A DNA stretch of 64,000 bases from Vulcanisaeta souniana JCM 11219 (GTDB lineage Archaea; Thermoproteota; Thermoprotei; Thermoproteales; Thermocladiaceae), in NCBI RefSeq assembly GCF_026000775.1, contig NZ_AP026830.1:124001-188000 (forward strand), written 5' to 3'. The position numbers were made by a program, and so were the translations under genes. The notes beneath the pieces were generated by a model. The model saw only the letters and a list, made by a program, of their open reading frames with translations, had not been told where the DNA came from and did no database searches. Positions within the stretch are counted from its first letter, which is position 1, and each line of letters starts with the position of its first letter. Positions 24,502 to 63,707 of the stretch are shown here, one piece after another.

Positions 24502-24871
24502 ATGGCTAGGTATTGGCTGTTAATGATGAATGAGGAGAATTACCGGCATACAATTGAAAAGGGTATTTACGGCCTACCTGAAAAATCAAGCAAGCTCAAA
24601 GAGCTGATCGAGCCTGGCGATAGGCTAGTGGTCTACATAACAAAGAAGGAATGCCGAGAACTCTGTGGGTCATTCACGGCAATCCTAGAGGTCATTGGCG
24701 AGTGGAGGAAGTCGAGCAAGCCATTGTGGCCGGATGAGGTTAGGGAGGGTAGGATACTCTATCCCTGGTGCTAGGATTAGGGTTATTGTGAGTGGAAAGG
24801 TTGAGTTCAATGATGTTAAGAATGATCTATCAAGATTGTTAGGTAGGAAGATAGAGAACCCAGGGAAATAA
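24502..24871 (+). pseudogene. EVE-domain protein gene with a frameshift
   Basis: The frame from ATG 24502 reads MARYWLLMMNEENYRHTIEK, then LKELIEPGDRLVVYITKK, which is the N-terminal part of the EVE (PUA-like) fold, but stops at 24772-24774 after ILYPWC. The missing end lies directly after in another frame (ARIRVIVSGKVEFNDVKND, then LLGRKIENPGK) to a TAA at 24869-24871. Deleting four bases (TGCT, 24768-24771) or one base joins YPW to RIRVIV as in intact EVE proteins. EVE domains bind modified bases and often sit beside restriction nucleases. The nuclease-like gene begins 11 bases later. Confidence 0.7.
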
Positions 24872-24882
24872 GACTTAATTCC

Positions 24883-25374
24883 ATGTATTATTCAATAAAG
24901 CCATTACCAAGCGGCGTAGGTGAATTAATCGAGGAAAAGCTAAGGAAAGGGATTGAGACAACGGAATTGATGAAACAAGGCAAGTTCAGCCATAAGGAGT
25001 TAACCAAGATGGCTAAAGATATCAGTGAATGGCTTGGTTTTAGAGTTGAGATAGAACGCAGTATCGATAACTTCAGGGTGGACCTAGCCCTATTCAAGGA
25101 GCCCAGATCCGTGCCTTTCGCCGTTGTTGAGATTCACGTCAGTGGTGACGCGTATAAGGACCTAGCCTCCCTAAAGCATGCCTATGATAGGTACGGCTCA
25201 AGGTTAATTTACGTAATAGTCAAGGACGAGGAGGTCGTGATGAAATTAATAAACGGCGCATTCCACGAAATTAAAGACCAAATAATCATAGTAAAAGCCC
25301 AGGAACTAAGGCAATTACATAAAGCATTAAGTAAGGAAGACATAAGAAAATTCATCAGCGAACTAATACGATAA
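24883..25374 (+). CDS. PD-(D/E)XK-like nuclease-fold protein
   Basis: 163 residues. A helix-rich front (residues 10-50) is followed by the alternating pattern of a restriction-endonuclease-like core: NFRVDLALF with Asp67, then AVVEIHVSG with Glu83-Ile-His85, then a helix and LIYVIV. His stands where the usual ExK Lys would be, so activity is uncertain. It directly follows the EVE gene, and the EVE plus nuclease order recalls modification-dependent restriction. No exact family recognised. Confidence 0.55.
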   Translation: MYYSIKPLPSGVGELIEEKLRKGIETTELMKQGKFSHKELTKMAKDISEWLGFRVEIERSIDNFRVDLALFKEPRSVPFAVVEIHVSGDAYKDLASLKHAYDRYGSRLIYVIVKDEEVVMKLINGAFHEIKDQIIIVKAQELRQLHKALSKEDIRKFISELIR

Positions 25375-25380
25375 GACCTA

Positions 25381-25563
25381 CTAATGCTTAACCGCCCTCC
25401 TACCCGACCTAAGTATGAATTCCTTACCCGTGCTCGCATCACTGTAGTGGTTGAATGTGCCACCGCACGCCCTACACTTGTAGTGGGTTACGGTGTAGTT
25501 ACGCATCTTCCAGGTCTTAACAACCTCAACATCATCAGAACCACAGTACGGGCACTTAATCAC
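25381..25563 (-). CDS. Small zinc-ribbon protein
   Basis: 60 residues from a GTG at 25563. CPYCGSDDVEVV (4-15) and CRACGGTFNHY give one CxxC...CxxC zinc ribbon with an Arg/Lys-rich tail. Such small ribbons occur in many crenarchaea as presumed nucleic-acid binders. Convergent with the nuclease-like gene, 6 bases apart. Function unknown. Confidence 0.7.
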   Translation of the reverse strand: MIKCPYCGSDDVEVVKTWKMRNYTVTHYKCRACGGTFNHYSDASTGKEFILRSGRRAVKH

Positions 25564-25682
25564 AATGTGAGTTAGTAACTTGCCACTTAATTAATTTTAC
25601 ACTTAATTAATCAGCATGTTATGAAAACGTGAAACATAAGTTAATAATAAGCCCTAACTCTTTCACTTTAAATCCTAGCTTA

Positions 25683-25694
25683 CCTTTATAAATT
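25683..25694 (+). promoter_or_regulatory. TATA-like box of the defence-like operon
   Basis: CTTTATAAATTA, about 35 bases before ATG 25723. It is the strongest TATA-like sequence in the 160-base gap and the only visible promoter for the four genes that follow. Confidence 0.5.
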
Positions 25695-25722
25695 AAATGT
25701 CACGTTACTTAAAATACTAAGT

Positions 25723-28707
25723 ATGAAACAACCTAGCGATCCATTAATTAAGTACTTCCCGATGCGCGAGGTTAATGAATATTCAGCTGTCGAGAAGGGG
25801 CCTGGGAGGCCGCCTTATTGGGAAATGGTCTTTTGGTGGACGAGGAAGCCGCTTGCCAGCGCAAGGGCGGTGATAGCCAGTGCCCTTCTATCGAGGGAAG
25901 CCTACGGTAACGTGCAGCAGTTCCTAAACGACCTATTCCCATGCCGTAACGAGCAAAAGACCGTCCACAACTGTAACCCATCGCCGAGGCTTATCGAGAA
26001 GCTTAGGGGTAGGAAGCTCCTGGATCCATTCGCTGGCTTCGGCTCAATACCGCTCGAGGGGCTTAGGCTTGGCCTAGACGTAACCGCCGTCGAGTTACTA
26101 CCCACAGCCTACGTATTCCTAAAGGCGATCCTCGAATACCCAGTCAAGTTCTGGAAAACTACCATTGAGGTATCGGGCAAGGAGGTTAAGGAATTAGGCC
26201 TCGAGGATGTTGCCAAGAAATTCAACAATGCGAGGCAGATTAACGACTCAAGCAGGTATAAGGTGCCTAGGCTCATCTACGATGTAGCCAAGTGGGGTAA
26301 TTGGATAGTAAACCAACTAAGGAGCGACCCAGACATCAAGGAGCTCTATGAAGAGGACGTGGCAGTCTACATAGGTACCTGGGAAGTAAAATGCCCAATA
26401 TGTGGAAGATACACACCACTAGTGGGCAACTGGTGGCTAGCAAGGGTCAAGAAGGGCAGTAGTACTTATTACAGGCTTGCCTGGATGGAGTGGGACAACG
26501 GCATTAAGGTAATTGACCTAAATAAAAAATGCAGGGAAGAAGGCGGTGGATCATGCAGGGAATTAATGGCCAAGGTCACCACGAGAGATGAGGAAGGCGG
26601 TACCGTTGAATGGCGTGGCAACAAGTATAAAATACCCATTAAAAACATTGAGCCCAAGAGAGAGACAGCCCAATGCCTATACTGCAAAGCCGAGATCAAC
26701 CATAGGGTCATAAATGGACAGATAAGGAAGCTCACTAAGAAGGACGGCGAGTGGTACGTCAAATGGGCCCTAAGGCAGTGGAATGAATTATACGAAAAGT
26801 ACCTAAAGGGCGAAATAACACTTGACGAACTACTGAGGAGCCCAGCCAAACCCAGGCTCCTAGTAAAGGTCAGGCTCATTAACGGAGACTTGGAATTCGA
26901 ACCAACCACAGAGCAGGACACTGAGAAGCTTTGGAGAGCCCTGGAGAAACTTAGGGCGATGTGGGGAGACCCGGACATACCGACAGAGGAGCTATGGAAA
27001 TATACTGCAAGTGGAGGAGGAGCGCTTAGCATTTGGATATGGGGCTTCGATAGATTCTTCAAACTCTTTAACCCACGCCAACTCTTCACCCTGGTAAAGC
27101 TCGTTAAACTAATACGTGAAGTGGGCAAAAAAGTCGAGGAGGAGAGACTTAGGGAGGGCTTAAGCCAGGAGGAAGCCAGAAAATACGCAGAAGCAATAAC
27201 AACATACCTAGCAATAGCACTACTTAAACATGTCAATTACAACAGCATTGTAACGTCTACTGAACCTACTCAGAAATTTATTCGAGAGACTCTTGCCTTT
27301 AGAGGTATTGCTATGACATGGAATTGGGTAGAAGAGTACCCTGTCTCGGACGTATTAGGCTCGTTCACTAGGTCGTTAAGCTCCGTTATTGAAGGACTTG
27401 AGTACCTTGTTTCTGCTGTTTCTGGTAGTCCTAGTAGGGTTAGGGTTTTGCTTGATGATGCCTCTAGCCTGAGTAAGTTGGGTGGCGAGAAGTTTGATGT
27501 TGTTGTTACTGATCCTCCTTATGCATATGATGTGGCTTATTCTGAGCTTAGTGATTTTTACTATGTTTGGTTGAAGAGGGCTCTTAGTGATAGTGATGGT
27601 GTTTCGCTTAGGCCTAGGTTCTTAAGTGAGGCCTTCTTTGATGAGTTTGGTGTTGAGATTCCAATCCAGTGGCAGGTTTTTGCTCCTAAGGAGGTTTCTG
27701 AGAATAAGGGACGTTTTGAGCATTTTAAAATGAATGTTTCGTTTAGGGATTTGTTGGCTAGGGCCTTTGCAAACATACTGCGTCTCTTGAAGGATGATGG
27801 TTTACTCGTTGTTTATTACGTGGCTAAGAAACCCGAGTCCTGGGAGAATCTTGTTGATGCCTTGTGGCGTGTTAATGGCCTTGAGTTGGTCACGGCGTTT
27901 CCTGTCGCCACTGAGAGTGAGGAGAGTGTTGTGGCTAGGGGTAAGGCCTCGGTCCTTGGTGGTTATGTCTCGGTTTGGAGGAAGAGGGTTAGTGCCAAGC
28001 CTCTTGATTTGGATGCTGTTAGGGAGTCGGCCTTGGCTGAAATCGTTGATAGGGTTGGTGGTAGGCTTAAGGTTGCTGGTAATTTTGAGGGTCATACTCT
28101 TTGGGTTTATTCTTACATGGCTGCCCTTGAGTACTTGACTTCTCATTATCCGGTGAGAGCTGGTGGTATTGAGCTTGATTCCAAGGGCCTATTGGATTAT
28201 GCTGTTACGCTTGCATTTAAGGCTCTCTTGAGGAGGACTGGCGTTGAGCTTCATGATAGGGTTGCCCAAGCTTACCTTGCCCTTAGGATTATTGAGAGTG
28301 AGAGGGGTTATGTGGATAGTGATGTTTTGTCTCATGTTGAGAGGGCTGTTGGCTTCGGCCATGTTGAAATGGTTAAATATGGGCTTTTAGGTGAAGTTGA
28401 AATAGGTGGTCCCAGGGTGGCTAAGCGTAAGGCCTTTGAGGTTTTGGCTCCACGTAGGGAGACTGTTGATGAGGTTAGGCGTGTTTATCATTATCAACGT
28501 GGTAAGTCTCCCGTGCTTGATTGCTTCAGGCAATTGCAGCTGAATGCCTTGGCTAAGGCATCCGTGAACTGTGGCGTTGATGTTAGGCGTGAGACGGTGG
28601 ATTTTGCCAGGGCCCTTGTGGAGCTGGGTAAGGTTGGTATTCTTGATGAGGATGATGTTGATGTTAAGACCGCCAGGGTAATAATCGGCGCTGAGTGGTG
28701 GCAGTGA
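25723..28707 (+). CDS. DUF1156 DNA methyltransferase with zinc-ribbon insert
   Basis: 994 residues. The N-terminal DUF1156 signature is present (PYWEMVFWWTRKPLASARAV). The S-adenosylmethionine motif DPFAGFGS is at 101-108 and the amino-methyltransferase catalytic motif DPPY at 597-600, so it should methylate adenine or cytosine N4 in DNA. Between them lies a long insert with CPIC (224-227) and CLYC (318-321), likely one zinc site, and probably the DNA-recognition part. After 600 a large C-terminal part follows. Codon choice changes abruptly near 27250: A/C-ending codons before, T-ending codons after. First gene of the operon; its stop overlaps the next start (TGATG). Confidence 0.88.
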   Translation: MKQPSDPLIKYFPMREVNEYSAVEKGPGRPPYWEMVFWWTRKPLASARAVIASALLSREAYGNVQQFLNDLFPCRNEQKTVHNCNPSPRLIEKLRGRKLLDPFAGFGSIPLEGLRLGLDVTAVELLPTAYVFLKAILEYPVKFWKTTIEVSGKEVKELGLEDVAKKFNNARQINDSSRYKVPRLIYDVAKWGNWIVNQLRSDPDIKELYEEDVAVYIGTWEVKCPICGRYTPLVGNWWLARVKKGSSTYYRLAWMEWDNGIKVIDLNKKCREEGGGSCRELMAKVTTRDEEGGTVEWRGNKYKIPIKNIEPKRETAQCLYCKAEINHRVINGQIRKLTKKDGEWYVKWALRQWNELYEKYLKGEITLDELLRSPAKPRLLVKVRLINGDLEFEPTTEQDTEKLWRALEKLRAMWGDPDIPTEELWKYTASGGGALSIWIWGFDRFFKLFNPRQLFTLVKLVKLIREVGKKVEEERLREGLSQEEARKYAEAITTYLAIALLKHVNYNSIVTSTEPTQKFIRETLAFRGIAMTWNWVEEYPVSDVLGSFTRSLSSVIEGLEYLVSAVSGSPSRVRVLLDDASSLSKLGGEKFDVVVTDPPYAYDVAYSELSDFYYVWLKRALSDSDGVSLRPRFLSEAFFDEFGVEIPIQWQVFAPKEVSENKGRFEHFKMNVSFRDLLARAFANILRLLKDDGLLVVYYVAKKPESWENLVDALWRVNGLELVTAFPVATESEESVVARGKASVLGGYVSVWRKRVSAKPLDLDAVRESALAEIVDRVGGRLKVAGNFEGHTLWVYSYMAALEYLTSHYPVRAGGIELDSKGLLDYAVTLAFKALLRRTGVELHDRVAQAYLALRIIESERGYVDSDVLSHVERAVGFGHVEMVKYGLLGEVEIGGPRVAKRKAFEVLAPRRETVDEVRRVYHYQRGKSPVLDCFRQLQLNALAKASVNCGVDVRRETVDFARALVELGKVGILDEDDVDVKTARVIIGAEWWQ

Positions 28708-31700
28708 TGGTGACTAATAACCTAAGGCTCCTGGCTGAGGGCAGGATTAGCCCTGCCGTCGATGTTTACGTCGTCTATAGAGCCCTATTCCATAATGAGC
28801 AACCGCCGGAGTTGCACAGGACGTACTGCGTGCCTGACCAGTTCCTCAGCGTGACCTATGTAACACACGCCTTTAGGCATTATCTTGAGGATTTCCTTGG
28901 GAAGTTGACGAGGAATGAACCTGAGGTTTATGCGCTACCCGCCCTATTGGGTTCAGGTAAGTCCCATTTCCTTGCGTTGCTTCTTCATGTTATTGCCCTT
29001 TATAGGCGGTGTAATGGTATTGGTGAGTGCGTCGGTAAGGAACTTGGGAAGTATGGCTTAATAATTAACACGCCTACCCTTAGTAGGGTACCTGAGGTTG
29101 TAGTTTTCCATGGCCAGTATTCCCTCAGTGACCTTGCGGCTGCGATTAGGAGGATAGGTGATAAGAATGAGTTGAGGGCTTTCCTGGGTGGTAGGGCGCC
29201 CATAGTGCTTGTTTTTGATGAGACCCAGTACTTTGAGAGTAAGGATCCTGGTTTTGTGCCCTGGATTCAGATGCTTTCTGAGGTGGTTAAGGAGTTGCCT
29301 GGTACTTACTTATTCGTGTCCTTCTCACTATTTCCCGGCGAAAAACCTGAGCTGCAGTCCTCAAGGGCCTTGGATGTTGTTAGGCGTGTTGGCCCGATTG
29401 TCGTTGAGCTGGATACCGTGAGGAACATCGTGGAGGTCTTTAGGAGGTGGAGCGGGTTAACGCCGAGGAGTGTTGATTTGTCCTTGCTTAAGGGGGCTGT
29501 TAATGATAATGAACTTAGGGACTTTGAGAGGAGACTTAGGGATACTTACCCGTTTAATCCTGTTTTTCTCGATGTGGTGCTCAGGCTTGGTGAGGAGTCC
29601 ATTGCTGAGCGTACTCATGTTCAATTGACCAGGGAGTTACTGAGGACCCTTGCCATGGCCTACGTGAATGCGAAGGGCGGTGAGTTGGTTACGTTTGCTC
29701 ACTTGCCTGAGCCACGTAATTTGATCGTGATTGGTGGTGATTTTGCCGCCTATTGGGATGCGTTGGTGAGGTTTTATGAAGAGGATAAGAGGAGGGTTGA
29801 GGAGAGGAAGTTGGGTGGTGTTGTCTTATCCGTGCTTAGGCATATTTTCCTGACCACGTTCCTCGCCAGGTTAATGCCGTCCGCTATCCTATACCCATCT
29901 GAGGATGATTTGGTTCTCGGTAGTTTTAATGGGTTGGATGTTAGGCCCCTTGATGTTAGGGCTGCGATACAGGGTATAACCGAGGCTGGTCTGCACGTGG
30001 CTAGGCTCGGTAATAAGTACCTCTATTGGTATATTCGTGATGAGACCGATGCCATTAGGGATGCAATGCTTAAGTTCTCTGTGGAGGATAGCATGCAGGT
30101 CGCTACTGATGAGGTTGCCTCATTGGTTAGGGAGAGGTCTGGTGTTTTCTCTGCCGTATATATCTCGGGTGTTGGTGGTCCTAGGTCATCGAATAAGGTT
30201 CATGTTATTTCCAGTAAGGATGAGTGGCAGAAGGCCCTTGATGACGGTGATGATTCTATACTAGCCATTGACCTGCTTGACTTCGGTGTTGGTAAGAGGA
30301 GGAATAATCTCATTGTGGTGAGGAGGGATGATGGTGTTGAGGCGCCGCTTGAGGTTAGGGAGGTTCTTGGTAGATTTGCTGGTGTTAAGTACGTGAAGGA
30401 TGCCGTTGATTACCTGGGCAGGATTGTTAAGGCTATTGATGAGGTTAATGGGAACTTGTACAATTACTTCCCTGATCTGCTTACCATTGAGGGTGATGAG
30501 AGGCTGAGGAGGGAGATGGAGGAGTTGTTGAGGGGTCGTCTTGCTCAATGGAAGGAACGCACTACAGTTCTGTTGAGGCAGGTTGTTAATTTATGGCTTA
30601 GGAACGTAATTGTTGGCTTTAAGGATAGGGAGGTGAAGAGATTGGATGATTTCTTGACGGAGATAGCCAGGTCAAAGGGTGATGTGATTGAGGGCGTGGT
30701 TAAGCAGGTATTTGAGGGTGACTTGGTTGATTGGAATGGGTTTAAGAAAATTGGTGATTTATGGAGCCTATACCTTTACAATGAGGGCTTTCCATCGGCG
30801 CCGATCTCCTTTGATGAGTTTAGGGATAGAATAAGGGATTACTGCTCTGGTTGTCGCTGTGTCTTTGAGACCTCGGGAGAAGTAGTATGGCTTTCCAGGG
30901 ATAAGTGTAGGGTTCCTCAACTCGATAAGGATGTTGGTGTTGCCCCATTCATATGGCGTGGAAGCCCCGTCGAATGGGCTGTGGAATCCTTCCTTAAGCA
31001 ATTGGCGAGCCAGTCGAGCGGTTCGAGGAGGTACTACATTGTCTATAGGAGGCCGAGTGGTGAGGAGGTTAGGAGGTTCGTGGTTGATTTGCTCTCGTCG
31101 AGGAATGATTGGGTGTATTTGATAGAGGGGCGTGTTGAGGAGGAGGTTGTTAATAAGTCCATTGATGTTAAGATTGATGGTGTATCCACGTTTACGGTTG
31201 AGAGAAATCCTGGGTCTAAGGTGCCTATTGAGGTTTCCGCAAGTGATAATTTGAGGTCTGTGATTTACCGCATTGGTGATGCGGAGAACGAGGTTATGGT
31301 GAATGGAACCAGTTATCGTTTTGAGATCGATGTACCTAAGGAGCCTGGTGATTACAGGCTTGAGTTGGAGGCTGTGTTTGATGATGGGAGTAGGGATAAG
31401 AGGAGCATTATTGTGAAGGTTAAGGGTAAGTGCATTAGGTCCATCACCACTTACTCAGTATCCACTAATGATATGCTTAGGGGTATTGAGGTTACGAGTA
31501 TTGACGCTGCCGATAGGTTACTACAGTACCTGCAGAGGTTGGTTCCCCGTGGTTATGGCTTCAAGTTTAGGTTGAGTGCGAATCAGGGTGTTGGTGACGT
31601 CGTCATTAACCTATCCGCTGAATTCGAAATTTCCAGTACAGATAAGGTTAATAGCGCCCTACGCCTTTTGAAGGCATTAAGGGATATTTCTCCATCCATA

Positions 31701-31808
31701 GATGCTGTCGTGGAGTTCCATAAAGCGATTCCTGTTGATAATGATATGGTGGGGTATTTTAAGGGATACAGTTTTCAGTATATTATTGATAGGGAGACTG
31801 AATGTTAA
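28707..31808 (+). CDS. DUF499 P-loop ATPase (PglY/BrxC-like)
   Basis: 1033 residues from ATG 28707; a GTG at 28695 is also in frame but lies inside the methyltransferase gene. The family P-loop LLGSGKSH is at about 80-87 (first Gly of the classic motif replaced by Ala) and Walker B LVFDETQYF at about 168-176. DUF499 ATPases are the PglY/BrxC components of Pgl and BREX phage-exclusion systems and recur with DUF1156 methyltransferases in archaea. The C-terminal 250 residues include an Ig-like segment (SKVPIEVSASDNLRSVIYRI) and an alpha/beta tail. ATP-driven sensing or assembly on phage DNA is inferred. Confidence 0.87.
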   Translation: MVTNNLRLLAEGRISPAVDVYVVYRALFHNEQPPELHRTYCVPDQFLSVTYVTHAFRHYLEDFLGKLTRNEPEVYALPALLGSGKSHFLALLLHVIALYRRCNGIGECVGKELGKYGLIINTPTLSRVPEVVVFHGQYSLSDLAAAIRRIGDKNELRAFLGGRAPIVLVFDETQYFESKDPGFVPWIQMLSEVVKELPGTYLFVSFSLFPGEKPELQSSRALDVVRRVGPIVVELDTVRNIVEVFRRWSGLTPRSVDLSLLKGAVNDNELRDFERRLRDTYPFNPVFLDVVLRLGEESIAERTHVQLTRELLRTLAMAYVNAKGGELVTFAHLPEPRNLIVIGGDFAAYWDALVRFYEEDKRRVEERKLGGVVLSVLRHIFLTTFLARLMPSAILYPSEDDLVLGSFNGLDVRPLDVRAAIQGITEAGLHVARLGNKYLYWYIRDETDAIRDAMLKFSVEDSMQVATDEVASLVRERSGVFSAVYISGVGGPRSSNKVHVISSKDEWQKALDDGDDSILAIDLLDFGVGKRRNNLIVVRRDDGVEAPLEVREVLGRFAGVKYVKDAVDYLGRIVKAIDEVNGNLYNYFPDLLTIEGDERLRREMEELLRGRLAQWKERTTVLLRQVVNLWLRNVIVGFKDREVKRLDDFLTEIARSKGDVIEGVVKQVFEGDLVDWNGFKKIGDLWSLYLYNEGFPSAPISFDEFRDRIRDYCSGCRCVFETSGEVVWLSRDKCRVPQLDKDVGVAPFIWRGSPVEWAVESFLKQLASQSSGSRRYYIVYRRPSGEEVRRFVVDLLSSRNDWVYLIEGRVEEEVVNKSIDVKIDGVSTFTVERNPGSKVPIEVSASDNLRSVIYRIGDAENEVMVNGTSYRFEIDVPKEPGDYRLELEAVFDDGSRDKRSIIVKVKGKCIRSITTYSVSTNDMLRGIEVTSIDAADRLLQYLQRLVPRGYGFKFRLSANQGVGDVVINLSAEFEISSTDKVNSALRLLKALRDISPSIDAVVEFHKAIPVDNDMVGYFKGYSFQYIIDRETEC

Positions 31809-32194
31809 TAAGGAAGGGGCGTAGAGGCGTGGTTGTGGTACTGAATGAAGGCAAGTTCGAGGTTGGTATACCGTTCAGCGAGGTAGTGAGGTTGATGGAA
31901 CGGTTATGGCCGTGGGAATTAGGGGAACACGTTGTTCTTAATGGTGATGAAGCCCACTTCAAGGATATGATCCCCTTCGAGAGGGTGCTTATTTACTTAT
32001 TGGCTAGGCGCGGCGGCTTACTGCCGAGGGACGCAGAGGCATTGGCGTCTTACCTAAGGCTTCATGAGGTTGTGGCCCTCTCAGAGACGTTTTTGTATAG
32101 GTTTTGGCTTTGTAAGGTGAGTGATAATGACTGTAGGAGACTTACTGATGTATTCTCGAGAATAATCGCAAATTACCGTAGGGTGTTACCATAA
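31802..32194 (+). CDS. Unknown small component of the defence-like operon
   Basis: 130 residues. Starts MLIRKGRRGVVVVLNEGKFE with a short beta part, then helices (VVRLMERLWPWELGE; EALASYLRLHEVVALSE) and two Cys near the end. It overlaps the DUF499 stop by 7 bases and the helicase start by 1, so it is translated as part of the set. No domain recognised. It may link the ATPase and the helicase, or be a regulator. Confidence 0.75.
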   Translation: MLIRKGRRGVVVVLNEGKFEVGIPFSEVVRLMERLWPWELGEHVVLNGDEAHFKDMIPFERVLIYLLARRGGLLPRDAEALASYLRLHEVVALSETFLYRFWLCKVSDNDCRRLTDVFSRIIANYRRVLP

Positions 32195-34614
32195 TGGTTT
32201 CATTAATTGAGATTCTGAGATCCGCAGGCAAGGACTTGTATAAGCACCAATTGGACTTCGTCTCTGACGTCATTTGGATGGAGAGACCAAGGCTACTCCT
32301 GGCTGATGATGTTGGTTTAGGTAAGACGATACAGGCATTGCTCCTGATGAGGGTTTTGATGGAGTTTGGCCGTGTAAATCACGTATTAGTCATAGTGCCG
32401 CGAGCTGTCCTGGAACAATGGTCCACAGAGATGGAGAACTTCGAGATCCCGCATTACCTAATTGAATCTCCAGACTTTCCCATTGGCCATAGGGCCTATT
32501 TAATAACCCTCGATAGGGCTAAGATGCCGAATTACATGGATGCCCTGGACAAAGTGCAGTGGGATCTCATTGTTATTGATGAGGCCCACAAGATAAGGCT
32601 TGGTACCCAGAGGGAGAGACTTTCCCACCTATGTAGGAGGGCGGGTAGCTGCCTTTTACTTACTGCGACTCCGCACACAGGTGATGATGAGGATTACCGA
32701 TTCCTTACCAGCCTAGTTGGCGGTGTCGTGGTTAGGCGTGAGAAGAGGGATGTCGAGGAGTATGAGGGCAGAAGGATATTTCCTGGTTTGAGGTATTGGG
32801 TTGTCCAGGTAAGGGCATCGATAGATGAATCAATGGCGCTTAATTCAATGCTTAACATTCTCAAGAACCGTAATATTGAGCAGATCGTGAGGATTGTCGT
32901 AGAGAAGAGGGCCATGTCTAGTCCAGCCTCCCTGCTGAAGACCCTTAGGGTTGTGGTTGGTGGTAAATGTGACGAGGAGGCTCTTGAGGAGGGAGAACTC
33001 GATGCTTGCCTAGGGAATATCGCGGGCTGGAGGGATATAGAGGAATTGGCTGGTAAGTACGTTGGTGCCACTGACAGGAAGCTTGAAGCCCTAAGGAGCC
33101 TTATAGGGGATAGGCTACGGGGTAAGAAGGTCCTTGTCTTCACTGAGTATGCCACGACGGCGGAGTACTTGTTTCAATCTCTCACTAAGGGTTGCAGGAT
33201 AATCGAGTCTGGGGATGGATATGCCAGGGCGGATTGCGGGGAGGTTGGCGTTATGTATGCAACGTCTAGGGCTAGGGACAGGATTGACGTAAGTACTGCC
33301 GCGTTTCTACTCGCGCAGAAATACCCTACGGCCATTTTCATATCAACTGACATAATGTCGGAAGGCGTGAATCTACAGATGTTCAATGTTGTGGTGAATT
33401 ACGAGGTTGTATGGAGTCCCACAAAGCACATTCAGAGGATCGGTAGGATTTGGCGATTTGGGCAGAAGGCCAGTGACGTGCTTATCGTAGATATGGTACT
33501 CAAAACAAATTTAGAACGTGATGAATACACTATGTACCTTGATTTACTTGAAAAACTCTATGCGATATCCCTTAGGGCGCTGCCGCCGCAGAGCTATGGT
33601 GAGTTCGAGGTATACGAGGTTGGGGAGGAGGGTATTAGGAGGATTATTAATATTGGTTCGTCGATATTCCTACGCGAATCCGATGTTTACGAAACCGCCC
33701 TTTCCAATCGCCTTGAGGAATTACGGTCAAAGATTGAGGCGATATTGAGGGAAAGAGAGAAAATCAGGTGGAAGCCTAGGTCTCTCGTTGAGGAGGGGTT
33801 GAGAGTTAAGCTTGGTTATCCATATAACACCACCGTCGAGGCTGGGAGTGGTTATTACGTAGTTGACATAGCCTACATGGTGGGTAAGCAGGAATTCACT
33901 GCCTTTAAGGAAAGGATTCTAGTGCGATTACCTACGCCATTAAGTAGGAGTAGGGCTGTGCAGGAGGTCCTGGTTAGGGAGGGTGGTGTTGATTGGGATT
34001 TTGTTGAGGAGGAGGTTGGTGATGTTAAGGAGGATGAAAAGGACCAAATATTTCAGAAGGTACAATTGGCGCTATGGATCGACTTCAAGAAATACCTTGA
34101 TACGCTCACCAAGTACATCCCAATAGAGAACCCAAGGTATAAGATAGTCCTAATTAGGAGGGCGCGGGTAGTACGTAGTGAAGCCATTCCCGCCGGAGAC
34201 TTTGAATCATTGGTACAAAGTGAAGTACGTAGGAGCATGTACAGGGAGAAGACGGAACTCGCTGCAGCCAAGTGCATTGAGAATTGGTTGCGGAAAAATG
34301 GGTATGCCATTAAGGAGAGCTATAGAAGCACGCCAAGGCCTTTCGACATGGTTGTTGAGAAGAATGGCACGCTATACACCGTGGAGGTTAAGGGTAAGTG
34401 GGTCATGAGGAGGGATGAACCTATATCATTCACAGCGAATGAGGTTGACTGGGCATCAAGATTCGCGGACCGCCACCTCATATGCATCGCCTATGTTAAT
34501 AACGATAAGTGCGAGGACCTTGAATGCATGACCTTTGTAGAATTTCAGAAAAAGTGGATATTGGAAACCGTAAGAGGAATAGAATATAAATATAATGCCA
34601 GAAAAGCACTATGA
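32194..34614 (+). CDS. SNF2-family helicase fused to a PD-(D/E)XK-like domain
   Basis: 806 residues. The motor has DDVGLGKT (38-45), LVIVPRAVLEQW, DEAH (129-132), TATPHTGD, LVFTEYATTAEYL, ISTDIMSEGVNLQ and QRIGRIWRFGQ, so all SNF2 motifs are intact. After a middle part (about 480-690) the C-terminus has a nuclease-like core with Asp718 (RPFDMVVE) and Glu731-Val-Lys733 (TVEVKGKW), as in DUF3883-type domains. It resembles helicases of DISARM and related antivirus systems. Whether it cuts DNA is not known. Last gene of the operon. Confidence 0.88.
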   Translation: MVSLIEILRSAGKDLYKHQLDFVSDVIWMERPRLLLADDVGLGKTIQALLLMRVLMEFGRVNHVLVIVPRAVLEQWSTEMENFEIPHYLIESPDFPIGHRAYLITLDRAKMPNYMDALDKVQWDLIVIDEAHKIRLGTQRERLSHLCRRAGSCLLLTATPHTGDDEDYRFLTSLVGGVVVRREKRDVEEYEGRRIFPGLRYWVVQVRASIDESMALNSMLNILKNRNIEQIVRIVVEKRAMSSPASLLKTLRVVVGGKCDEEALEEGELDACLGNIAGWRDIEELAGKYVGATDRKLEALRSLIGDRLRGKKVLVFTEYATTAEYLFQSLTKGCRIIESGDGYARADCGEVGVMYATSRARDRIDVSTAAFLLAQKYPTAIFISTDIMSEGVNLQMFNVVVNYEVVWSPTKHIQRIGRIWRFGQKASDVLIVDMVLKTNLERDEYTMYLDLLEKLYAISLRALPPQSYGEFEVYEVGEEGIRRIINIGSSIFLRESDVYETALSNRLEELRSKIEAILREREKIRWKPRSLVEEGLRVKLGYPYNTTVEAGSGYYVVDIAYMVGKQEFTAFKERILVRLPTPLSRSRAVQEVLVREGGVDWDFVEEEVGDVKEDEKDQIFQKVQLALWIDFKKYLDTLTKYIPIENPRYKIVLIRRARVVRSEAIPAGDFESLVQSEVRRSMYREKTELAAAKCIENWLRKNGYAIKESYRSTPRPFDMVVEKNGTLYTVEVKGKWVMRRDEPISFTANEVDWASRFADRHLICIAYVNNDKCEDLECMTFVEFQKKWILETVRGIEYKYNARKAL

Positions 34615-60412: not shown

Positions 60413-61444
60413 GTGATCAGCCAAGTTAAATTGAGTAGGCGTAATTATGTTGGTGGCGAAGATTGGCGTAGGGATGCCATATTCATAGCTATCTCCATAG
60501 CCGTAATAATAGCAACAATAATCATACTAATAAGGTCAGGATTAGCGGGCGCTAGGTATGAAGCACCGAAGCACCCACTATATCTAGTGCTCTCTGAGCT
60601 CATATACGTAACCCAATTGTCACTTATCGGTATTAGGCTTAGTATAATCTTTAACAGGGGCATGGGCTATAAAATAAGGTCTACGGAATTAATTAAGGTA
60701 GTTACCGCCCAAACATTTGCCTCATTGCTCATGCCTGGATTCTACATCGGCGGTGAGGCAGTATCAATAGCCTACTTAACCTTTAAGGGATTACCAACGA
60801 CTAGGGCTACCGAGGGCATTACCTTTCGTTATACAGTTGATACGATAACATTAACGTCCATAGTACTCATACTTTACCTATTCAACCTAGTGATAATTCC
60901 CTACATAGCGCTTATAATTGCATTAATACTACTCATGGCATACGCCATATTGTTTATAACGATAGTAAGCGCGAGGTTAGGTAAGTACATCGAGCACATG
61001 TTTAGGTTTATTAATTCACGTATAAAAATCATAAGGAATTTCATATTAATGAATGAGAATGAGGATTACGGGCTTAAACTCTCACTGGTAGATTACTTCG
61101 TACTTTTTCTAGTGTCAATTACCCAGTGGTTGTTATCGGGACTTAATGTGATGTTAATATTCTACTCCTTCGGTGTCCACATAGGTATAATTACCGGTAT
61201 TCTAATTTCATCCTCATACACAATACTTACATACATATCAGTATTACCTGGGTCAGCCGGTATTGGGGAACTTGCTAACCTATACGTATTAAATAGTCTT
61301 AAGTTGGGTAATTATTACTTGGCTTATGATATTTGGTTTAGGATAATAACATACATAGTGCCGTTAATAATGCTCATGCCAGCCTTCCTCAGCATATCAA
61401 GGAAATTAACAATGATTAATACTAATCATAGGAACCCCCAGTAG
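60413..61444 (+). CDS. Flippase-like membrane protein (LPG_synthase_TM/UPF0104)
   Basis: 343 residues from GTG 60413, about eight membrane helices. The two conserved Gly/Pro loops are LMPGFYIGGEAVS (about 104-116) and VLPGSAGIGELA (about 282-293). The family includes the lipid-flipping part of MprF and many archaeal proteins of unknown lipid or glycolipid role. It overlaps the convergent helicase gene by 23 bases. Confidence 0.8.
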   Translation: MISQVKLSRRNYVGGEDWRRDAIFIAISIAVIIATIIILIRSGLAGARYEAPKHPLYLVLSELIYVTQLSLIGIRLSIIFNRGMGYKIRSTELIKVVTAQTFASLLMPGFYIGGEAVSIAYLTFKGLPTTRATEGITFRYTVDTITLTSIVLILYLFNLVIIPYIALIIALILLMAYAILFITIVSARLGKYIEHMFRFINSRIKIIRNFILMNENEDYGLKLSLVDYFVLFLVSITQWLLSGLNVMLIFYSFGVHIGIITGILISSSYTILTYISVLPGSAGIGELANLYVLNSLKLGNYYLAYDIWFRIITYIVPLIMLMPAFLSISRKLTMINTNHRNPQ

Positions 61445-63707
61445 GTAACTCGGTAATTCCCGACTGCGCACCCTTAATTATTGCATCAATAACCCTTATT
61501 GCATTCCTCCTTGAAAGGTAATGATTATCATTACCACAATAAGGTGAATAGACGCACTTTGGACAGCCGTCGGCGCATGTACAATGCGTTAATACGTCAA
61601 GTGATATCCTGAGGACATCATTGATCCTCTTGAGAAGCATCTTGGCTGTACCTGAACCACCAGGGTATGAATCATAGATTATTATATGCCCCGTTGGGTA
61701 TGAAATACCGCCCAGGTCTGTGGGCCCTGCACCAATTACATTCTCGCCAACCATAATGATTACGTGCTCGGTGGCGTGATAAGCCCTACCCCTCTCAACA
61801 ACGTCCATGTTCTCAAATGGACTAAAGGTTATGCTCGGTGCATAAATCACAACACCCTTAGTCTTGAATTCATAACTAAGTGGCTCCACTAAGTCCCTCT
61901 TTTCCACGACCTCACCACTACTGAACCTCTTAACTATGTATCCGTGAACCACCTCCTTAATTGTTAACTTAACATACTGATACGGCACGGAGTTTATCAC
62001 GCCCTCCTCAAGTACCTCATCAATCCTCGGCTCAGAGTTATAGAGCGCTGTTGTGTAAAAGTCGTAGTTACTCGATAACCTCCTTACGTGAGCTGTCCTG
62101 CTGCCCATGTCAAGGCTGCGAACCTCGTAAACCCTACCACCATGGAGATAAACGGCACCATCATGAAGCTCCCTCAACGCCGTGGGCAACTCCCTATAGC
62201 CCACAACCCTCTTATCATCACTAACTATCTTAACCACGTCACCAATGCCCCTAATGCCATGTATTGCCCTTGCAACCTCGCGACCCCTGTCAGTCACCAT
62301 GTAATAATTGCCCCTGGCCTCAACAAGTCCCTCATTAACAAGCAACCTGAGGACCTCCTCGCAGTAATCATCCACTGAACCGACCTTCACGGGTCTCTCG
62401 TAAGCCATTAAAAGGCAATGCCTCCTCGCTATCTCATCATTCCTCCACTCCACATACAAGTCCTCGGGCTTTCTTGTGTAAAACTCGTGAGGGTTGGAGC
62501 TGTAGTACGTACTCATTGGATCATCACCAAGGACCTGAATCACGTAAGCCCTCTGCCCCCTCCTACCAACCCTACCACTCCTCTGTAGGTACTTTGAGTA
62601 GCTGGGTGGTATTGTGGCCATGACGGCTACGTCAATATCACCAACGTCAATACCCATCTCCAGGGTGGGTGTGGATAGTAATACCAGGTACTTGCCCTCC
62701 TTGAAGCCGTCCTCAACCTCATGCCTCTCCTCAATCGTGAGCCCAGCCCTATGAACCCTAACCCTATCACCAAACCCAGCCCTATCGGCATGTCTCTTAA
62801 CCAACTCCACAAACCTATGGCTATCCGCAAACATGAGGCACTTCATGCCCCTCCTAACGCACATCCTAGCCAACTCAGCGGCCTCCGCAAGCCTACCCCT
62901 CCTTATCGGGCTAACCAGCATGTGCCTAGTTAGTCCCCTCCTACCCTCTGGACCCCTGACCAGAACCAAGTCCTCCGCACTAAGCAAATCCCTGGCAAAA
63001 TCAAGTGGGTTACCCACGGTGGCTGTGGAAACAATGAACTGCCAGTCCCTCATGAACCTCCTCACCCTCTTGAGCACGTAGTGGACGTGGGCACCGAAGA
63101 CGCCGTTGTATACGTGAAAATCATCAAGCACCATCACCCTATATCCACGAAGGACGTCCTTAAACTTACTCACGTGGGTCAAGGCCTCACTGACCATGTC
63201 AGGGTTTGTAATGAGTATGTCCGGTGGTGACGAGTAAACCCTGGACCTAACATCACTGGGCGTATCCCCATCATACGGCATTACCGACACATTAATTGCA
63301 GAGAGGTACCTCTGCATCCTAAGTAATTGGTCCCTGGCCAAGGCCTTAGTTGGGTACATGATCATTACCTTAACACCCTCCTTGTCCATCAATGATATTA
63401 ACGGTAGTAGGAAGGCCTCAGTCTTGCCCACGCCTGTCCCAGCCATGATGACCGTGTGCCTACCCCCAGTGATTGCTTGGTAGGCGTCCCATTGAAACTC
63501 ATAAAGCCTATCAACCCCGGCACCCCTCAACTTGCCTATTAACTCCCTCGGTAGGTCAAGGGAGTCCACTGACGGCCCGTAACTCGGCTCCACGGGTTTC
63601 TCCTCATGCACATAAAGAAGAATCCTGGACCTGTCACTACCTAACTCACCTATGAATTCGTCCTCAAGCATGAACTTGGCAACCACCAACCTATCGCTCC
63701 TAATCAT
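61422..63707 (-). CDS. Hrq1/MrfA-like DNA helicase (DUF1998 domain)
   Basis: 761 residues. Walker A AGTGVGKT (89-96), a DEAH variant (VLDDFHVY), STATVGNP and RSGRVGRRGQ are intact. The C-terminal DUF1998 part has the zinc-binding cluster CTCADGCPKCVYSPYCGN. Bacterial MrfA and eukaryotic Hrq1 unwind DNA and help repair cross-links; a repair role is inferred. A zinc-ribbon gene lies 22 bases upstream on the same strand and may be part of the same unit. Confidence 0.9.
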   Translation of the reverse strand: MIRSDRLVVAKFMLEDEFIGELGSDRSRILLYVHEEKPVEPSYGPSVDSLDLPRELIGKLRGAGVDRLYEFQWDAYQAITGGRHTVIMAGTGVGKTEAFLLPLISLMDKEGVKVMIMYPTKALARDQLLRMQRYLSAINVSVMPYDGDTPSDVRSRVYSSPPDILITNPDMVSEALTHVSKFKDVLRGYRVMVLDDFHVYNGVFGAHVHYVLKRVRRFMRDWQFIVSTATVGNPLDFARDLLSAEDLVLVRGPEGRRGLTRHMLVSPIRRGRLAEAAELARMCVRRGMKCLMFADSHRFVELVKRHADRAGFGDRVRVHRAGLTIEERHEVEDGFKEGKYLVLLSTPTLEMGIDVGDIDVAVMATIPPSYSKYLQRSGRVGRRGQRAYVIQVLGDDPMSTYYSSNPHEFYTRKPEDLYVEWRNDEIARRHCLLMAYERPVKVGSVDDYCEEVLRLLVNEGLVEARGNYYMVTDRGREVARAIHGIRGIGDVVKIVSDDKRVVGYRELPTALRELHDGAVYLHGGRVYEVRSLDMGSRTAHVRRLSSNYDFYTTALYNSEPRIDEVLEEGVINSVPYQYVKLTIKEVVHGYIVKRFSSGEVVEKRDLVEPLSYEFKTKGVVIYAPSITFSPFENMDVVERGRAYHATEHVIIMVGENVIGAGPTDLGGISYPTGHIIIYDSYPGGSGTAKMLLKRINDVLRISLDVLTHCTCADGCPKCVYSPYCGNDNHYLSRRNAIRVIDAIIKGAQSGITELPTGGSYD

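Follow-up and report, generated by a model that had tools for sequence, protein, structure and literature searches.

Operons that combine a DNA methyltransferase with a DUF499 ATPase and a helicase-nuclease belong to a class reported in thousands of prokaryotes, the mechanism of which is little known (PMC12839542). This DUF499 restriction-modification type was noted in a 2013 survey of HEPN domains (PMC3710099). Bell, Wolf and Koonin (2020) describe an operon, present in diverse archaea, in which a COG1743 methyltransferase is combined with DUF499 and a SWI2/SNF2 helicase-nuclease and EVE genes lie close by, and predict it to be a restriction system (PMC7641849). Payne et al. (2021) named the system Hma (PMC8565338), and Rakesh and Krishnan (2026) described DUF499-centred BREX-related (BR) systems of types 1-3 and cite a test of a bacterial HmaA helicase against phage (PMC12839542). 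We analyzed a 64,000-nucleotide stretch of the Vulcanisaeta souniana JCM 11219 genome (the window), in which a four-gene operon had been read as a minimal antivirus system. The class is not new, having been predicted, named and classified as BREX-related in the four papers above, and by its family matches the core of the operon belongs to this Hma/DUF499-centred class. The fourth gene, here called P3, lies in a slot between the ATPase and helicase genes.

The operon consists of four overlapping genes preceded by a putative promoter and contains the following features.

25685..25697, + strand: TATA-like element TTTATAAATTAAA, found in the sequence 26-38 bases 5' of the first ATG
25723..28707, + strand: DUF1156-type N6-adenine/N4-cytosine DNA methyltransferase, HmaB-like, 994 aa (Pfam, PADLOC, invariant motifs)
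26392..26685, + strand: CxxC-bounded stretch of the methyltransferase (C224/C227 and C318/C321; cysteines invariant in 9/9)
26995..27048, + strand: hypervariable, apparently exchanged target-recognition segment 1, methyltransferase residues 425-442 (its identity is uncoupled from that of the remaining protein)
27226..27447, + strand: hypervariable, apparently exchanged target-recognition segment 2, methyltransferase residues 502-575 (identity likewise uncoupled)
28695..31808, + strand: DUF499 AAA+ (ORC/Cdc6-like) ATPase, HmaC-type, strongly diverged, 1037 aa from a GTG start
31802..32194, + strand: P3, the 130-residue slot subunit, overlapping the ATPase gene by 7 bases
32194..34614, + strand: SNF2-family helicase with a C-terminal nuclease and without an N-terminal extension of TUDOR length, 806 aa
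34264..34506, + strand: NOV_C / PD-(D/E)XK nuclease domain (D718, E731, K733; Pfam NOV_C above cut-off, triad invariant in 11/11)

The four open reading frames lie where the original prediction had placed them, and the motifs it named are invariant in the aligned relatives (9/9 methyltransferases, 11/11 ATPases, 11/11 helicases). An alternative ATPase start at the ATG at 28707 would leave a 1-base overlap with the methyltransferase stop codon; the P3 and helicase genes also overlap by 1 base. The placement of TTTATAAATTAAA is as expected for a putative leaderless archaeal promoter. Scans for sigma-70 promoters and terminators, which are not applicable to archaea, yielded chance-level hits only. 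Comparison with the nearest relative (84-88% protein identity) gives dN/dS values of 0.06-0.16 across all four genes, which are real and under purifying selection. By this measure P3 (0.064) is a working gene.

All three core proteins retain intact catalytic residues. The methyltransferase matches Pfam DUF1156 (1.2e-8, above cut-off) and the PADLOC models MTase_II (1e-197) and HmaB (8e-51), and its DPFAGFGS and DPPY motifs are invariant in 9/9 aligned proteins. The ATPase matches Pfam DUF499 (3.3e-10, above cut-off) with Walker A (GxGKS) and Walker B (DE) motifs invariant in 11/11; the PADLOC HmaC model misses it and matches its wider archaeal relatives. No HEPN domain was found in it by Pfam, and inspection by eye suggests a beta-sandwich ahead of an RRM-like end; in type 2 systems, FnIII-like domains precede the C-terminal RRM of DUF499. 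The helicase carries SNF2 (1e-16), Helicase_C (4.6e-15) and PD-(D/E)XK-type NOV_C (2.7e-5) domains, all above the Pfam cut-offs, with DVGLGKT, DEAH, R..R and D718/E731/K733 invariant in 11/11. Its core starts within the first ca. 16 residues, making the N-terminus ca. 90 residues shorter than that of HmaA; it thus lacks the segment where TUDOR sits while keeping the type-1 nuclease. The helicase resembles DrmD, and the operon contains no DrmB (DUF1998) or DrmC (PLD) partner. A separate DEAD-box helicase with an MZB domain (DUF1998), of the MrfA-like DNA-repair type, is encoded outside the operon (61422-63707, - strand).

The target-recognition segments of the methyltransferase look exchanged between lineages. 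Two pairs of relatives are nearly identical outside segments 1 and 2 and strongly diverged within them (L033 and L036: 91% and 90% outside, 28% and 36% within; L043 and L044: 92/89% outside, 33/31% within). The reverse holds for the window protein and that of L039, which are 59% and 66% identical outside and 94% and 78% identical in the segments. Such exchange implies that site specificity matters and, at the level of sequence comparison, supports modification-based self-recognition. The CxxC-bounded stretch is a probable zinc finger of the target-recognition insert, and a zinc finger in this insert has been described for BR methyltransferases (PMC12839542). With long-read sequencing of Pyrobaculum and Vulcanisaeta strains in culture, the exchanged segments also offer a route to tie sequence to methylation motif. 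In a maximum-likelihood tree, the 23 archaeal methyltransferase rows form one clade (100/100), apart from the sampled bacterial type 1 (99/97) and type 2 rows; the bacterial sample is small and long branches leave the placement of type-2 and type-3 rows unsure. No relatives were found among the viral contigs searched with the methyltransferase or the phages searched with the ATPase.

The operon, a system of hot-spring archaea, recurs in other genomes and is patchily distributed. Recurrence of the four-gene order had been named as a check in the original prediction, and the order methyltransferase-DUF499-P3-helicase is present in eight more genomes, in two of them on fragments and in one with broken frames; another genome (L041) has the helicase gene inverted, and three lack P3. 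Pyrobaculum oguniense TE7 carries the four-gene form, its methyltransferase reading frame being split in the record, and Caldivirga sp. MU80 carries a three-gene form. Among 398 Thermoproteota genomes, 13 encode the ATPase and 10 have a solid P3 match; all 10 are within the 13 (Fisher p 1e-17), and P3 adjoins the ATPase gene. At the L041 locus (L041:5001-8007), the inverted helicase gene and the P3 gene are convergent and overlap by ca. 32 bp, and there is an unusual 77-aa N-terminal extension. Within the genus, the ATPase gene is confined to 3 of 12 genomes, a distribution that fits a mobile defense operon; in an empty-site comparison the flanking genes tested were not conserved. A second Vulcanisaeta genome (G265; loci L047 and L032) seems to carry two forms of the system, that of the window (C54) and that of the wider archaeal clade (C2).

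Accessory genes lie directly upstream of the operon.

24502..24774, + strand: accessory EVE-domain open reading frame, 90 aa, apparently interrupted (Pfam EVE 2.3e-9)
24883..25374, + strand: accessory protein of 163 aa, joined to EVE in one relative

Sequence resembling the EVE open reading frame appears to run on in a different frame, and EVE genes recur near the operons of relatives. The two proteins form a single 309-aa protein in one relative (L033:1661-2590), and relatives of the 163-aa protein lie beside operons of this type in L047, L049 and L044. The pair is possibly a modified-base-dependent nuclease partner. On the - strand, an open stretch at 25411-25575 encodes a CxxC zinc ribbon (CPYCGSDDVEVVKTW...CRACG); the region looks rearranged because the same ribbon is fused to a relative of the 163-aa protein in L047. 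In a Calditenuaceae MAG, the helicase-nuclease gene is followed, after ca. 1.7 kb, by a CRISPR-like array of 11 repeats of ca. 25 bases with 64-70 bp spacing (L049:15055-15764).

The slot between the ATPase and helicase genes is firmly established as a shared feature of archaeal loci. An unnamed open reading frame of 124-184 codons fills it in 29/33 distinct archaeal loci, and the 130-residue gene of the window is not an orphan. This occupied slot is the most informative point about the operon, and the original prediction left it out. A genome-wide scan with the methyltransferase alignment returned 29 archaeal loci. Among the wider relatives, 13 have both the ATPase and the helicase gene, and each of these carries an open reading frame of 134-183 codons between the two; the wider archaeal helicases also end in NOV_C (3/3 tested). 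A slot-gene profile matched 26 of the 398 Thermoproteota genomes, 21 of which also have the methyltransferase (odds ratio 56, p 1e-17); 18 matches lie 3.8-4.5 kb downstream of the methyltransferase match on the same strand, which, read from coordinates, is one DUF499 gene away. Ten further regions were fetched, eight of them with both genes: six slots are filled (140-184 codons), one region duplicates L050 and the slot of L107 is empty.

Profile comparisons tentatively place P3 and the wider slot proteins in one family. Hhalign comparison of P3 with the wider slot family gives suggestive single-comparison E-values of 0.002-0.016 at a probability of 3-15% and in consistent register, and, with the wider alignment in four versions, the scores beat 60/60, 59/60, 39/40 and 40/40 column shuffles. 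Against two lineage subsets alone, E is 0.04 and 0.24. For most slot proteins, alignment works only within the lineage, and those of L104, L105 and L108 form one group without any sequence link to the rest. The wider slot family appears related to DUF7680 (Pfam PF24728; E 0.0006, 0/100 shuffles as good), a stronger link than that between P3 and the wider form and the best-supported remote relationship; a merged slot and DUF7680 profile misses P3 and performs worse than the separate profiles. Small unnamed open reading frames with a DUF7680-like C-terminal part also follow DUF499 in bacterial operons of Rhodococcus (L098:2863-3345) and Pseudanabaena (L099:2770-3198). DUF7680 in turn matches DUF3780, the small gene of type 2 systems, at E 0.027 (0/60 shuffles as good). 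Direct comparison of P3 or the slot family with DUF3780 stays at background level, and a search run without a positive control found no DUF3780 in 300 Thermoproteota genomes. DUF3780 is the type-2 counterpart of the slot gene by position only, with a family link as a possibility.

P3 matches no Pfam or PADLOC family and has a confidently predicted alpha/beta fold. Its AlphaFold2 model (pLDDT 92, built on only three sequences) has the element order beta-beta-beta-alpha-beta-beta-alpha-alpha-alpha-alpha. The model of the wider archaeal slot protein of L063 (pLDDT 87), compared by element order alone, agrees save for a short four-residue helix turn. Neither model has a match in the PDB, nor does that of P3 among viral structures. 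Identification of P3 with DUF3780 finds no direct support, there being no Pfam match and a direct profile comparison at background. P3 is also not supported as a split-off helicase N-terminus carrying TUDOR: the helicases of three-gene relatives start at the same point without it, and the predicted fold is not the all-beta TUDOR fold. The deep-branching L041 encodes a form 27% identical to P3. The gene is absent from the fetched regions of L042, L043 and L044, all of which keep an apparently intact nuclease gene and which sit at two separate places within the P3-bearing methyltransferase clade. Provided that these absences are losses, at least two losses of P3 took place within the subclade of the window. 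These losses, together with the empty slot of L107, mean that P3 is not indispensable and can be dispensed with or replaced. Natural three- and four-gene versions in close Thermoproteales are a ready experiment on the role of the slot gene.

Given the gene content, intact residues, recurrence, co-occurrence, purifying selection, segment exchange and conserved slot, we think it probable that the operon is a restriction-modification-like antivirus system of the Hma/DUF499-centred BR class, representing an archaeal clade in which P3 serves the ATPase-helicase step as an accessory subunit. Each biochemical step that follows, and the role of P3, is what we infer. The methyltransferase would mark host DNA at a site set by the variable target-recognition segments, leaving the host protected. 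The ORC/Cdc6-like DUF499 ATPase would assemble on DNA and check that site, with P3 probably linking it to the TUDOR-less SNF2 helicase-nuclease. Viral or plasmid DNA that lacks the modification would be traversed by the helicase and cut by its PD-(D/E)XK domain. More speculatively, P3, the wider slot proteins, DUF7680 and DUF3780 may all be one fast-evolving family with a fold unseen in solved structures, forming an unrecognised fourth core subunit of DUF499-centred systems generally that would stand in for the missing TUDOR and connect the ORC-like ATPase, with its methylation read-out, to the helicase-nuclease; we regard this extension as possible, if short of likely.

Other readings of the operon as a whole and of P3 were weighed against the one we favor. 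It is highly improbable that the operon is part of a known BREX system completed elsewhere in the genome. The original prediction had assigned DUF499 to the PglY/BrxC type of ATPase, which holds to the extent of a weak similarity; DUF499 is set apart from BrxC/PglY as a distinct clade (PMC12839542). The genome, a single 2.43-Mb contig that is 99.7% complete, was checked by search for the missing partners, as had been proposed: PglX (BrxX) has no match, and the only PglZ match is sub-threshold and falls in an open reading frame beside an HtrA-like gene that looks like a phosphodiesterase/pyrophosphatase-type protein. BREX was accordingly rejected, the lack of PglZ likewise setting the operon apart from BR type 3, and the original reading of a modification and helicase-nuclease defense operon gains support from this absence, the family matches and the recurring gene order. 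Abortive infection or a replication block, in which the ORC-like ATPase would act against foreign replication instead of the system restricting at specific sites, finds backing in the homology of DUF499 to ORC1/CDC6, and passages of PMC7641849 propose replication interference for the archaeal system. We consider this unlikely given the exchange of target-recognition segments, the invariant nuclease triad and the lack of a detectable HEPN domain in the window's ATPase.

For P3 itself, a role as inhibitor or antitoxin that holds off the helicase-nuclease (or the ATPase) until invaders are sensed, instead of a coupling role, would suit a small, fast-evolving protein encoded just before the nuclease gene with a 1-base overlap. 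On that reading, the three relatives that lost P3 while their nuclease gene apparently stayed intact should suffer toxicity unless something compensates for it, and self-protection is already provided by the methyltransferase, so that an inhibitor seems improbable. Somewhat less improbable, yet still doubtful, is that P3 is an accessory protein peculiar to its lineage, with no relation to the small genes that fill this slot in other archaeal systems. The low profile scores and the slot proteins that cannot be aligned beyond their own lineage speak for it; the same slot filled in 29/33 loci, the agreement of the two models in element order, scores that beat nearly all column shuffles and the 27%-identical form in L041 speak against it.

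Comparison with described systems shows a mixture of type-1 and type-2 features. A haloarchaeal operon of DUF499, DUF7680, DUF1156, PLD and helicase genes (L081) likewise has a small gene after DUF499 but differs in its PLD nuclease and gene order. The operon of the window is very probably identical with the EVE-associated archaeal operon of PMC7641849, and here too an EVE gene lies just upstream; the main-text passages on that operon do not mention the slot gene. Type 2 BREX-related systems share a small alpha+beta protein encoded beside DUF499, with DUF3780 reported to consist of a beta sheet and five helices, which resembles the P3 model, and the lack of an N-terminal TUDOR. In contrast to type 2, the window has no PLD (HKD) nuclease at the helicase N-terminus, its nuclease being C-terminal, and a stand-alone DUF3780 was not detected in it by profile. 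Type 1/Hma is similar in its DUF1156 methyltransferase, DUF499 ATPase, SNF2 helicase with C-terminal PD-(D/E)XK domain and predicted restriction-modification-like logic (PMC12839542, PMC8565338). However, Hma has three genes and the window adds a fourth in the slot, its helicase lacks the N-terminal TUDOR region, no HEPN domain was found and its methyltransferase falls in an archaeal clade separate from the sampled bacterial type 1. The conserved extra gene of this clade points to a missing component of the class. The supplementary tables of the key papers may list the small gene; relative to the systems described in the literature searched, an archaeal clade with a slot gene, mixed type-1 and type-2 features and segment exchange is new.
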